Below are positions 36,342-48,930 of a stretch of DNA of 64,000 nt, piece by piece. Every line of letters starts with the position of its first letter. Position 1 is the first letter of the stretch. A model generated the notes under the pieces. It ran no database searches, was not told the origin of the DNA, and saw only the letters and a program-made list of their open reading frames with translations. This DNA is from Geovibrio thiophilus (GTDB taxonomy: Bacteria > Chrysiogenota > Deferribacteres > Deferribacterales > Geovibrionaceae). The DNA is taken from assembly GCF_004087915.1 (NCBI RefSeq), contig NZ_CP035108.1, forward strand, positions 310,001 through 374,000, in the 5' to 3' direction. Made by a program: the position numbers and the translations under genes.

Positions 36342-36818
36342 TCAGAACTTTAAATCAAGATTAGAGTTATCATCGGTTTCACTCACTACTGATGAGTAAT
36401 CAACTTTTGTTCTGTCGTATCTTAATTTTCCTTCAAACATTTCCACATATTTTTCACTGCCCGGACCGAACGGCTCTTTCACAGAGACGCTGAATCTATA
36501 ATGCAGATAATCACCGTAAATGTAGGAGCCGATGAAAAACCATGTTTTGTATTTTCCGTCAGCATCTTTCTGATGGTCATCGCCTATTTGTCCGCTGATG
36601 ATTATTCGGGCATCCTCAGGATATTTCTTGGCAATTTCCATTATTATGTCGGCAAAAAGCATGTCCTGAATGAGCCTTTTGCTTGTGTTATTATCGATAT
36701 TTTCAAGCATGTTAGTGCTGTTCGGCTTCATGCCCATTTTTTTTACGAAGCTCAAATCCTCGGCAGTAGCAGGGAGGGCGATGTATACAAATAAAAGTAA
36801 AGTAAAAAAGAATCTCAT
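36342..36818 (-). CDS. Exported hypothetical protein
   Basis: A 158-residue protein with a clear signal peptide (MRFFFTLLLFVYIALPATA) and a mixed alpha/beta mature part including ARIIISGQIGDD and TWFFIGSYIYGDY. I do not recognise the family. The start at 36818 follows GGAGG. It is cotranscribed with the downstream ferredoxin. Confidence 0.7.
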   Translation of the reverse strand: MRFFFTLLLFVYIALPATAEDLSFVKKMGMKPNSTNMLENIDNNTSKRLIQDMLFADIIMEIAKKYPEDARIIISGQIGDDHQKDADGKYKTWFFIGSYIYGDYLHYRFSVSVKEPFGPGSEKYVEMFEGKLRYDRTKVDYSSVVSETDDNSNLDLKF

Positions 36819-44990: not shown

Positions 44991-45530
44991 ATGAAAAGCC
45001 GCTGGCGGTTTTTAAGAACAGAGAAAAAATTCGCCGACCGTGTTCTCTCTGTGGAGCACAGGCATTATCATTTTGACGGTGCGGGGGCTTCCATGCCCTT
45101 CACTGTCGTGAATATCAAAAACTGGGTGATAACGGTTCCCGTTACGGCTGAGGGGAAGCTTGTGCTTGTCCGCCAGTTCCGCATCGGTACTGACAGCGTA
45201 ACCTATGAATTTCCCGGCGGTGCTGTGGATGACGGCGAAATTACGGCGGATGCCGCACTGCGCGAGCTTGCGGAGGAGACGGGCTACAAGTCCGAATCCG
45301 CCCGCAGTCTGGGGCTTATGCACCCCAACCCTGCCTTCATGACCAACTCCTGCCACTGCTTTCTCGTGGAAAACTGCACAAACGGCGGGGTGATGCACCA
45401 CGATCTCTTTGAAGAGACCGAGCCTGTGGAATTTACGAGGGAAGAGCTTCTCGCAATGGTGAAACGGGGAGAGATAACCCACAGCATAACCATTGCCGCC
45501 GTGGGGCTCTGGCTGGTGGATCAGGAGTAG
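44991..45530 (+). CDS. NUDIX hydrolase, ADP-ribose pyrophosphatase-like
   Basis: A 179-residue NUDIX enzyme. The NUDIX box GGAVDDGEITADAALRELAEETG is complete (GX5EX7REUXEEXGU), preceded by strands typical of ADP-ribose pyrophosphatases (VPVTAEGKLVLVRQFRIG). The substrate is probably ADP-ribose or a similar nucleoside diphosphate. It begins at the base after the stop of the small protein gene. Its 3' end overlaps the stop of the convergent HD gene by 10 bp. Confidence 0.9.
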   Translation: MKSRWRFLRTEKKFADRVLSVEHRHYHFDGAGASMPFTVVNIKNWVITVPVTAEGKLVLVRQFRIGTDSVTYEFPGGAVDDGEITADAALRELAEETGYKSESARSLGLMHPNPAFMTNSCHCFLVENCTNGGVMHHDLFEETEPVEFTREELLAMVKRGEITHSITIAAVGLWLVDQE

Positions 45531-46921
45531 AGAGAAGTATTTAGTTTTTGTAAAATATTTTCTAGTTTATCTTGTATCATTTTGGTATGGCTTTTGTGCG
45601 GTGAGAAAATCCAAATGATTGGCGTAGCTTCTTTTGTCTCAGATGTATCAAATCCTAAAAATTTAGCAATCGAGGTGTCGTTTTCTATGACTTTAATCTC
45701 GTTTTGTACATCATTAGAAAGTACTGGTGGAATGGTCTGGACATAAACAATAAAGTTAAAGTTGCAGTTTTGCTTTTCTAATTCTTTTTGAATTTTTTTC
45801 ACTTCTAAAATTATTGTAGGGATACTTTTTTTATTACATAGGTTTTCATAGGTAATTAAATCAATTGAGAAGTCTCTTTTATATAGACTTCTTTGTTTGA
45901 AATTCTCAATTTTTCCTTGTATTCCAGGACTTCCTAAGTCATAGAGTATTTTTATAAAATTGTCGTCAGTCCAAAAAGTGAATTTTGTCAAAAGATTTTC
46001 ATTAGAAACATCACCGTTACTGCTCACAGGTATTAAGTCTTGGTATGTTCTTTTTTCTATTACATCAGAAATTATTTCAATCAATAGAGCATCTGTTATA
46101 TTTCTGATATGATGTTTATAAACATTTTGGTGCATTTTATATCTACATAGCAGTAAAGACCATGCCTCAATTGCACTTTTGTGATTTGGTGCTAATTCAT
46201 AATTGTCATTTAGTGCGATGTGTCTCCATAATCGTTCTATATCGTATACCCCATATGGTGTACCGCAATGATATGAGTCTCTGATAACATAGTCACCTTT
46301 ATCAACATCAATTTTTCCATCAATAAGCTTACGTAAGATTTGTTCAACAGGGGATATGTCTCCCGATGAATATTCTAATTTTTTATTGAGCACTTTAATG
46401 GTTTTTTTAACAAATATTTCGTTTTTAAGTGAGTCGGAGTGTTGAATTATTTTCTGAGCAACAAATAGAGAAGTAGTTTCGTGGTCATAAAAAAAACTAC
46501 TGCTACCAGCTACATACTTACAAGCTTCTTCAAGCGTATGGCTGAAAGGTGCGTGACCAATGTCATGTAGCAGACCGCATGCTCCTGCTGACAATATAAA
46601 GTTAAGATTAGCATTTTGTGATGACAAGCCTTTAAAATCGCTATCTTCTCGCATAGCAAGTTCTAGTTTTTCTTTTGAAAATTGAATTAAGCTTGTCGCA
46701 GCCATCATTGCAAGATACATTGAGCCTAGACTATGTTCAAATCTTGAGTGTACAGCAGATGGGTAGACTAATTGCTCAAGAGGGAGCTGATTTATCCATC
46801 TTAATCTTTGAAAAAGCTTATGATCAATTATTGGTAAGAATTTTTTTGGTAACTCTATTGTTTGGTATATAGGATCTCGTATAAACTTTGTATCTAAACA
46901 ATATCCGTTAAATAAATGCAC
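45521..46921 (-). CDS. HD-superfamily phosphohydrolase (SAMHD1/dGTPase/YwfO-like)
   Basis: A 466-residue HD enzyme. The signature HSRFEHSLGSMYLA, then GLLHDIGHAPFSHTLE (HD) and a later Asp in VDKGDYVIRDS are the metal ligands of the dNTP triphosphohydrolase / YwfO group. Its C-terminal 200 residues are Lys/Asn-rich and not recognised. The coding region is plainly more AT-rich than the genes on both sides, a sign of transfer. The start is a GTG at 46921. It lies 8 bp downstream of the YwgA-like gene. Related HD dNTPases can deplete nucleotides in phage defence, which is only a possibility here. Confidence 0.85.
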   Translation of the reverse strand: MHLFNGYCLDTKFIRDPIYQTIELPKKFLPIIDHKLFQRLRWINQLPLEQLVYPSAVHSRFEHSLGSMYLAMMAATSLIQFSKEKLELAMREDSDFKGLSSQNANLNFILSAGACGLLHDIGHAPFSHTLEEACKYVAGSSSFFYDHETTSLFVAQKIIQHSDSLKNEIFVKKTIKVLNKKLEYSSGDISPVEQILRKLIDGKIDVDKGDYVIRDSYHCGTPYGVYDIERLWRHIALNDNYELAPNHKSAIEAWSLLLCRYKMHQNVYKHHIRNITDALLIEIISDVIEKRTYQDLIPVSSNGDVSNENLLTKFTFWTDDNFIKILYDLGSPGIQGKIENFKQRSLYKRDFSIDLITYENLCNKKSIPTIILEVKKIQKELEKQNCNFNFIVYVQTIPPVLSNDVQNEIKVIENDTSIAKFLGFDTSETKEATPIIWIFSPHKSHTKMIQDKLENILQKLNTSLYS

Positions 46922-46929
46922 TTATCGCC

Positions 46930-47433
46930 CTATTGTAAAACAGCATCCAATTCTTTTGCCATTGTGATATAACGTTTCAGTTCAGATTCTGTTTTTTGTG
47001 ACACTTCCGGCCACATGAATTTTGATAATGTTTTAATCATTGCGACCAACTCTGTATCGTTTTTTGCGCTATTCTTTTTATAGAAGAAGAATACTTTTGC
47101 GAGTAAAGCAATTTTATTAACTGAGTCTTTGAGCCCCTTACTCTCTAAAAACGAAATAGTTGCTTTAATGTTTGTGTTATAAGTACTTTCTTTGTGTTGG
47201 TTCGTCTGATACCCCTTGTCTCCGTAATCTATTATTTCTTTATACTGAAGGCTGTGAATAGTTGTTTGAATATCTTCACTGTATGGACCGTAGTGGTAAG
47301 GTACAAAATATTCATCCCTAGTCTTAGTAAAAGAAAAAAAAGCTATTTTCTGAATATTTGTTCTGCCAGTATTAAATCCTTTTTGGCCTAGTTCATGGAC
47401 AATATTTAATACAATTTCAGCTAAATTTTCCAT
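46930..47433 (-). CDS. YwgA / Panacea-like protein
   Basis: A 167-residue helical protein. The N-terminal segment GRTNIQKIAFFSF...YVPYHYGPYSEDIQTTI follows the pattern GRxxLQKxxFF...HYGPYS of the YwgA and SocA/Panacea-type proteins; here I quote it in segments (FVPYHYGPYSEDI). In Bacillus ywgA lies beside ywfO, an HD phosphohydrolase, and the same pairing occurs here. It is as AT-rich as its partner. ATG 47433; transcription may start from the TTGACA element at 47484. It may act as regulator or antitoxin of the HD enzyme. No known function is proven to me. Confidence 0.72.
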   Translation of the reverse strand: MENLAEIVLNIVHELGQKGFNTGRTNIQKIAFFSFTKTRDEYFVPYHYGPYSEDIQTTIHSLQYKEIIDYGDKGYQTNQHKESTYNTNIKATISFLESKGLKDSVNKIALLAKVFFFYKKNSAKNDTELVAMIKTLSKFMWPEVSQKTESELKRYITMAKELDAVLQ

Positions 47434-47460
47434 TATAAACCCCGAGATAATTTATACAAA

Positions 47461-47489
47461 AGTTAAACATAATGTATGGATCCTGTCAA
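47461..47489 (-). promoter_or_regulatory. Possible promoter of the HD/YwgA pair
   Basis: Minus strand TTGACA (47484-47489), 17 bp, TTAACT (47461-47466), 27 bp before the YwgA-like start. The -10 match is weak. Confidence 0.35.
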
Positions 47490-47563
47490 CGAGCATCTCT
47501 AGACCACTTATCGACCAAATACTGCACATTATTGAGTGAAAGTGATGAATCCGATAAAAATAT

Positions 47564-47926
47564 CTACCTGTTCAGGATATTCGCCGAGACCTTATGGCAC
47601 TCGGAACATTTATCAAGGGGGGCGTGCCAGCCGTCCGCAGGCCACTGGTTGTGGCAGTCAAAGCAGCGGGTTCCGCATCCGTCCGCAGAGGCTGCGGGGA
47701 GGAAGGTCTTCTTCTCGGAGGGTTCGTGGCACTGGATGCAGGTTTTGAGAGGCTGATGCTCTTTGCTGTTTGCAAGGTTCTGGTGGCATGTCATGCAGTC
47801 ACCGGCGCAGCCTGCGTCGGCTTGGTTAAAGGGGGTCAGCGCTGTGAGGGCTACCATAAAAACTCCGATACAGAATCCCCAAGCAATTCCCCTTTTTCCG
47901 TTAACGCGATTTTCCCTTTTTTCCAT
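47564..47926 (-). CDS. Small tetraheme c-type cytochrome
   Basis: A 120-residue exported or membrane-tethered cytochrome from the ATG at 47926, which has GAGGG upstream; the frame is also open to 47947. A hydrophobic N-terminal segment (GIAWGFCIGVFMVALTAL) acts as signal or anchor. Four CxxCH motifs follow: CMTCH, CIQCH, CFDCH and CSECH, in pairs as in NapC/cytochrome c3-like minis. It overlaps the end of the HemW-like gene by 76 bp, an unusually long same-strand overlap. Electron transfer in the periplasm is likely; the partner is not visible. Confidence 0.85.
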   Translation of the reverse strand: MEKRENRVNGKRGIAWGFCIGVFMVALTALTPFNQADAGCAGDCMTCHQNLANSKEHQPLKTCIQCHEPSEKKTFLPAASADGCGTRCFDCHNQWPADGWHAPLDKCSECHKVSANILNR

Positions 47927-48930
47927 TCCAAAAGACCCTCGCCGCACAGGCGGCTTATTTTTTCTTCAAGCTCAAAATCCCTGAGGTTATAAAATGCTGA
48001 AAGAGCGGTTATGTCAACCCCTTCCGTCATTCTCAATCCGAAAACCACGGCTTCCTTGACCAGATCAGCCTGCTCCGTGACTGATATTTCATCATAGGAT
48101 GACGGCTCGGCAAGGTAAATGTTCACATCTTTCGTTTTACCTCTGTGGATTCGCTTGTCCGGATGGTTTTGAAGGGACCACGCCGAAGCTCCTATGCCTG
48201 TGAAATCCCCAAGCTCCCAATAGTTTATGTTGTGCCCGCTCTCATGCCCTTTCTGCGAGAAGTTGGATATTTCGTATTTGGCGTAGCCCCTTGAACCGAG
48301 GAAATACTTTACTTCAAGGAACATGCTGTCTGTCACCTCACCTTTTTCGCTCAGATAACCCGTGTCGAAGGAGTATGAGTAGGCGGATATATGCTCGGGC
48401 TTGAGGGCACATATCTCTTCCATGCTTCTGCGTGCCGCTTCCGGCGGTGCTTGGGGTATATCGAATATCAGGTCAAGATTGATGTCCGCATCGGGTAGAT
48501 GCTTTCTTGTGAGATCGTATGCGGAAAAAACTGCCCTGCGGTCATGCAGCCTGCCAAGAAGCCTCAGCACATCATCGTCCGTGCTCTGGCAGCCCATGCT
48601 CAGCCTGTTTGTGCCGTGGGTTTTTATTGCTTTCAGAAAATCGGCGGACAGTGATTCGGGGTTAGCCTCAACAGTGAACTCCCCCGCTATGCTGACGGAT
48701 CTGAAGAGGCTTTCCAGAAATTTGTCCAGAAGTCCGGCGGGAACGGCGCTAGGTGTGCCGCCGCCGATGTACATCGTGTCAAAGGCGGTTTTGCCTGTAT
48801 GCGCCAGATCCGCAAGGAGCGCGTCAAAGTACCTGCCGATCAGAGCTTCATCATATACGTCAAGAGACATGAATCCGCAGTAGAGGCACTTTCTGCGGCA
48901 GAAGGGCAGATGTATGTAAAGTCCGCTCAT
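47851..48930 (-). CDS. hemW: HemW-like radical SAM protein
   Basis: A 359-residue radical SAM protein. The SAM cluster motif is CRRKCLYCGF (CX3CX2C), followed by MYIGGGTPSAV, VEANPES, NRLSMGCQS and the C-terminal HemW domain (INYWELGDFTGIGASAWS). HemW is a heme chaperone related to coproporphyrinogen III dehydrogenase HemN; CX3CX2C alone without the extra HemN Cys favours HemW. It overlaps the glycosyltransferase stop by 4 bp. Confidence 0.88.
   Translation of the reverse strand: MSGLYIHLPFCRRKCLYCGFMSLDVYDEALIGRYFDALLADLAHTGKTAFDTMYIGGGTPSAVPAGLLDKFLESLFRSVSIAGEFTVEANPESLSADFLKAIKTHGTNRLSMGCQSTDDDVLRLLGRLHDRRAVFSAYDLTRKHLPDADINLDLIFDIPQAPPEAARRSMEEICALKPEHISAYSYSFDTGYLSEKGEVTDSMFLEVKYFLGSRGYAKYEISNFSQKGHESGHNINYWELGDFTGIGASAWSLQNHPDKRIHRGKTKDVNIYLAEPSSYDEISVTEQADLVKEAVVFGLRMTEGVDITALSAFYNLRDFELEEKISRLCGEGLLEWKKGKIALTEKGELLGDSVSEFLW

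Follow-up and report, generated by a model that had tools for sequence, protein, structure and literature searches.

An AT-rich islet in the chromosome of Geovibrio thiophilus is a foreign, horizontally acquired insertion with two genes, one for a SAMHD1-type HD family protein with intact metal-binding residues and one for a small protein of the YwgA / DarG C-terminal-domain family. The window, that is, the whole stretch of DNA analysed, comprises 64,000 nucleotides. HD enzymes that deplete dNTPs are antiviral in animals (SAMHD1) and in bacteria (anti-phage dGTPases, Clover); how cells keep such enzymes safe is a current question. The chances are about even that the islet is a defence-related module, its HD effector depleting dNTPs and its small protein holding that effector in check or acting as its sensor.

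Composition, borders and site of the islet

The features of the locus (window positions) are as follows:

44991–45530 (+): native NUDIX hydrolase gene, left border, outside the module; genus-conserved, 87–94% amino acid identity in the same-genus genomes G001 and G002.
45531–47560 (no strand): AT-rich insertion (islet) of about 2.03 kb, flanked by the convergent NUDIX and cytochrome c genes; ends accurate to within about 10 bp.
45521–46921 (−): putative effector, 466 aa, GTG start, a probable SAMHD1-type HD dNTP triphosphohydrolase; HD and HD_assoc_2 domains, SAMHD1 homology.
46922–46932 (−): intergene (8 nt) and stop codon of the small gene; reverse strand TAGGGCGATAAGTG, read directly.
46930–47433 (−): small gene of the YwgA / DarG C-terminal-domain family, 167 aa; its product is a putative sensor or antitoxin-like restrainer, with matches to DarG models, 7yk3_B and Priestia YwgA.
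47434–47560 (−): noncoding leader preceding the pair, part of the insertion; a GGGG ribosome-binding-like motif stands ahead of the small-gene ATG.
47564–47947 (−): native small multihaem-cytochrome-like gene, right border, outside the module; 88–89% amino acid identity in G001 and G002.

GC content of the islet was 32.4% (45531–47560), and every other 2040-bp stretch of the window gave 43.6% or more; the two genes stand at 32% against about 49% for the surrounding region. GC and GC3 were 0.323 and 0.248 (HD gene) and 0.325 and 0.304 (small gene); the 57 crudely called window genes, of which these two are the lowest, averaged 0.489 and 0.553. The small gene is transcribed first and is followed after 8 bases (between 46921 and 46930) by the HD gene, both on the reverse strand; an AGGG ribosome-binding-like motif, read directly in 46922–46932, overlaps the small-gene stop codon, so that translational coupling of the two genes is possible. 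A promoter search of the leader (47434–47560) gave no call above chance. The HD stop codon lies within the 3' end of the convergent NUDIX gene (44991–45530; overlap 10 bp), and the last HD codons are therefore written in DNA common to the relatives. A pair AT-richer than both sides, packed 8 bp apart and ending at the convergent NUDIX gene had been described in an earlier, sequence-only reading of this DNA, and all three points held; the AT-rich block that it had marked at the NUDIX gene is real, the insertion itself being slightly longer (about 45531–47560). The neighbours of the islet in the window are housekeeping genes and form no defence island. The next most AT-rich window gene (36342–36818, reverse strand, 158 aa) has a GC content of 0.386 and is without a PADLOC match.

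Loci of relatives were located via the flanking hemW-like gene. Both flanks of the islet align with G001 and G002 at 76–87% DNA identity; G001 has an empty site, its NUDIX and cytochrome genes almost abutting (about 8 bp between the aligned blocks), and G002 carries at the identical point an unrelated 2.2-kb insert of normal GC with two ankyrin-repeat genes. Only about 0.1 kb is found at this site in G003, which belongs to another genus of the same family. Neither gene was found in any of 11 family relatives of the window genome; among 40 relatives, the HD protein had matches in two and the small protein in one, all outside the family. Since the site is empty in G001, bears other cargo in G002 and holds only about 0.1 kb in G003, the islet is a gain at a variable site and not an ancestral operon; the insertion point is a small variable-cargo site. 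The foreign or mobile islet supposed from the letters of the window is thereby supported, and a fixed, vertically inherited pair of normal base composition is excluded. The islet showed neither terminal repeats nor a tRNA or integrase. The adjacent ankyrin-repeat genes of the G002 insert (L027:4162–6311; repeats recognised by eye) encode proteins of 338 and 378 aa that carry signal-like segments at the N-terminus.

The two proteins

HD protein: Pfam HD and HD_assoc_2 both scored above cut-off. Sequence homologues of known structure were 2hek, fungal and animal SAMHD1 (E 7e-22 for SAMHD1) and the HD protein 2o6i. The AF2 model (pTM 0.80, mean pLDDT 76) matched SAMHD1 in Foldseek at about 1e-17 with a TM of about 0.73 across the chain, and homology to the SAMHD1/YwfO-type family in sequence and fold covers the catalytic core. 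On alignment, read by eye, H63, H119, D120 and D207 correspond to the SAMHD1 metal ligands His167, His206, Asp207 and Asp311, and D33, Q38 and R41 to the first allosteric-site residues D137, Q142 and R145 (SAMHD1 residues as named in PMC7045340); part of the allosteric site is thus kept. H63, H119, D120, D207, H128, E131 and H147 are invariant in two alignments (A3 and A6), the metal ligands and the catalytic His/Glu being present. Because the SAMHD1 fold, the metal ligands and the first allosteric-site residues are retained, the protein is likely to hydrolyse dNTPs, as judged from sequence and model. The HD dNTPase family was correctly named in the sequence-only reading. Assignment to the Dgt/CloA dGTPase family was rejected (dGTP_triPase model, 19.6 bits; cut-off 152 bits).

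Small protein: DarG models of two libraries matched at 2e-6 to 2e-8, within the C-terminal part of DarG, and the PADLOC DarG model matched all 12 members of the small-protein family alignment. The family profile retrieved 7yk3 chain B from the PDB at 3.8e-5; the AF2 model (pLDDT 91) gave a single significant Foldseek PDB match, 7yk3_B (7e-4), which is the DarG chain of the M. tuberculosis DarTG complex. Priestia YwgA matched the small-family HMM at 1.4e-21. By profile and fold the protein thus belongs with the DarG C-terminal domain and YwgA. It had earlier been called SocA/Panacea-like, an assignment that is not sustained: the Panacea model (PF13274, SocA_Panacea) scored 14.2 bits against a Pfam gathering cut-off of 25.7 bits, and a PF13274 search of the window's genome, G013 and G015 gave nothing. 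Residues 49–51 are GPY in place of GPV, the Panacea signature motif according to PMC8832971. As an ssDNA mimic, the DarG C-terminal domain is reported to occlude the active site of DarT (Deep et al. 2023, cited in PMC11481870). For the window protein, DNA mimicry through an overall negative charge, which has been proposed for DarG, finds no support, since that protein is slightly basic (pI 8.6; family range 4.8 to 8.6).

Related domains were seen in other contexts. Complete-looking DarT-DarG operons are present in two other Deferribacterota genomes, G034 and G013 (L170:1489–3183 and L172:255–2010); the DarG C-terminal domains of L170 and L172 match the small-family HMM at 1e-12 to 1e-13. In an archaeon (L182:928–1746) and a Sphingobacterium (L183:1432–2370) a related small domain is apparently fused to a DUF488-like domain, as read by eye; a similar downstream gene follows in both, and the layout resembles the PADLOC candidate PDC-M19A (294 aa).

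Recurrence of the pair and competing explanations

Adjacent pairs, in either gene order, recur in Deferribacterota, Bacillota, Armatimonadota, Coatesbacteria, one archaeon and several phage contigs, and the earlier proposal of a mobile two-gene unit agrees with this distribution. Viral sample (30 viral-contig loci with SAMHD1-like genes): a small-family gene lies immediately downstream of the HD gene in L036, L061 and L064, and immediately upstream, as in the window, in L058, L059 and L060. Genome sample (best 80 of at least 595 candidate stretches, non-random): small gene adjacent downstream in L068, L076, L090, L093 and L125, adjacent upstream in the archaeal L096; in 74 of these best 80 loci the HD gene has no small-family neighbour, and solitary SAMHD1-like genes occur in Listeria, Aerococcus and Bacteroides. 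In the viral and genome loci together, all small-family matches with E of about 1e-8 or better adjoin the HD gene. A scan of 50 whole genomes, chosen as HD carriers, gave 17 small-family matches; the single-domain ones below 1e-20 adjoin the HD gene without exception (8 of 8), two of them (L185 and L186) being second loci that had no part in the choice of genomes, and the other matches were mostly DarG itself, fusions or weak. Within the window's phylum, strong HD matches were obtained in 3 of 51 genomes, each paired with a small gene. When plasmids, phages and viral contigs were queried for the small protein by single-sequence or narrow-alignment search, nothing was obtained, and the protein surfaced only as a neighbour of HD genes; a single-sequence HD scan of viral contigs likewise gave nothing.

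The pair consists of adjacent, co-directional genes conserved as a unit, in the manner of type II toxin-antitoxin systems. The two families co-diverge: pairwise distances of HD and small proteins correlate with a Mantel r of 0.76 (p 1e-4 or below, n = 14 pairs), to which shared host descent could contribute. The phylogenies are poorly resolved and weakly supported, with very long window branches; in both trees the virus and archaeal pairs that have the small gene first form a group and the window copy, also small-first, falls outside it, which suggests independent changes of gene order. Searches for a close relative of either islet gene (clearly over 30% identity across the protein) found none. 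This would suit a chance co-transfer of two unrelated AT-rich genes without joint function, but such an event is very improbable, as the repeated adjacency of the families in distant lineages and their co-divergence already contradict chance.

Neighbourhoods of the other copies are mixed as regards defence genes. The G015 copy lies beside restriction-modification genes, namely a type II methyltransferase, a restriction enzyme and a type IIG-like fragment (L035:5230–8494); the window copy has no such neighbours. Upstream of the G013 copy is a PIN-domain (VapC-like) gene, recognised by eye from sequence and without a PADLOC match. The pairs of G013 (L034:2447–4305) and G015 (L035:2410–4336) are closely similar, although the two genomes are of different families and the genes around the pairs are not the same; this suggests a recent transfer within the order. 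In predicted phage genomes (gene names read from translations), the pair has HNH and terminase genes as neighbours in L036, is surrounded by tail-like genes in L061, and lies close to thyX in L058 and to an integrase in L064.

These phage contexts (among them L036, L061 and L058), together with the viral origin of the nearest HD relatives by path in the weakly supported tree, would favour genes of phage origin for nucleotide metabolism or superinfection exclusion, a moron pair that phage transfer left behind and that serves the phage rather than the host. Such an origin is rather improbable, given that no phage genes, integrase or att repeats were found in or near the islet and the relatives are only about 30% identical; since superinfection exclusion is itself a defence role, it also overlaps with the best explanation. 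Somewhat unlikely, yet more probable than this, is a pair for nucleotide-pool homeostasis, in which the HD protein trims dNTPs, the small protein is an allosteric subunit with no role in defence or toxicity, and the window copy arrived by transfer as a metabolic pair. The many HD genes without a partner and the conserved allosteric-site residues agree with it, as does the Priestia ywfO-ywgA pair (L146), which sits among ordinary chromosomal-type genes; for ywfO-ywgA of Bacillaceae it may hold. For a housekeeping pair, however, a sporadic presence (3 of 51 phylum genomes), copies on phage contigs, an insertion site with variable cargo and a small protein akin to an antitoxin domain would all be unusual.

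In the restrained-effector module, the HD protein would drain the dNTP pool of the cell. The small gene, upstream on the same strand, is probably on the same transcript; its product, a stand-alone relative of the DarT-blocking DarG domain, would most likely bind the dNTPase directly and keep it quiet, or may alternatively couple it to a trigger. Phage infection or replication stress would lift the restraint, dNTPs would be depleted and replication of the phage (and the host) would stall. Toxicity, neutralisation and phage resistance of the pair are what we infer. Counted for the module were the foreign insertion, both families and folds, the metal-binding residues, the recurrent adjacency, the co-divergence, the restriction-modification neighbours in G015 and the phage-contig copies; counted against it were the solitary HD genes, the ordinary Priestia neighbourhood, the basic small protein and the housekeeping neighbours of the islet. 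Many SAMHD1-like genes stand alone, and the fold therefore does not in general need a restrainer; ywgA is not known to be an essential gene in B. subtilis, and this sits badly with a toxin that would be lethal there when unrestrained. The interpretation reached from the window alone was right in outline, the family of the small protein and the gene order being corrected.

Tentatively, and with slightly less than even confidence, the pair may represent a widespread, undescribed toxin-antitoxin or phage-defence family, a SAMHD1-type dNTPase checked by a stand-alone DarG-type inhibitor domain. If so, dNTPases would be restrained in a new way, by a recurrent small partner that comes from an antitoxin-domain family, a function would be suggested for the uncharacterised ywgA, and the DarG inhibitor domain would extend beyond DarT, one inhibitor fold having been recruited separately against a DNA ADP-ribosyltransferase (DarT) and a dNTPase.

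Comparison with known systems

A search of the open-access literature gave no description of an HD-Panacea or dNTPase-antitoxin pairing or of ywfO/ywgA, and no published function for the ywfO-ywgA pair; the sequence-only reading had likewise known of no description of the combination. ywfO-ywgA of Bacillaceae (Priestia L146) has both families, adjacent and on one strand, with YwfO matching the HD HMM at 1e-74, and to this extent the likeness noted earlier stood; the gene order is reversed, the HD gene being first in Priestia and the small gene first in the window, and the neighbourhood is ordinary in Priestia whereas the window copy is a foreign sporadic insert.

DarTG: in sequence and fold the small protein is related to the DarG domain that binds DarT, but the window locus lacks a macrodomain and DarT and has a SAMHD1-like dNTPase as partner of the small protein, which is not acidic. 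Identity with DarTG was rejected, the small protein being a single domain of 167 aa with an HD gene as its neighbour, without macrodomain or adjacent DarT. PanAT (Panacea/DUF4065), as described in PMC8832971 and PMC10440598: common to both are a small protein, mainly of helices, that has a beta hairpin and a conserved G-P motif, a putative toxic enzyme as partner and the occurrence of either gene order, but the window protein is below the Pfam Panacea cut-off and has GPY for GPV; the main text of these two papers names no HD phosphohydrolase. SAMHD1 and the bacterial anti-phage dGTPases: the HD fold, metal ligands and presumed dNTP depletion are shared, but those enzymes work alone or together with other partners.

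A dNTP-depleting effector with a regulatory partner is already known as a kind from Clover, the pairing in the islet being undescribed in the literature searched. Clover consists of the CloA dGTPase and the CloB nucleotidyltransferase, and its dNTPase becomes toxic once the activity of the partner is lost (PMC12265719). Identity with it was rejected: the pair gave no nucleotidyltransferase match, and the HD protein, of SAMHD1/YwfO type, is far below dGTPase cut-offs (dGTP_triPase, 19.6 vs 152 bits). The likeness lies in the two-gene unit, in which an HD dNTPase is the effector and its toxicity would be curbed by the partner; Clover is the nearest experimental precedent for a restrained dNTPase.
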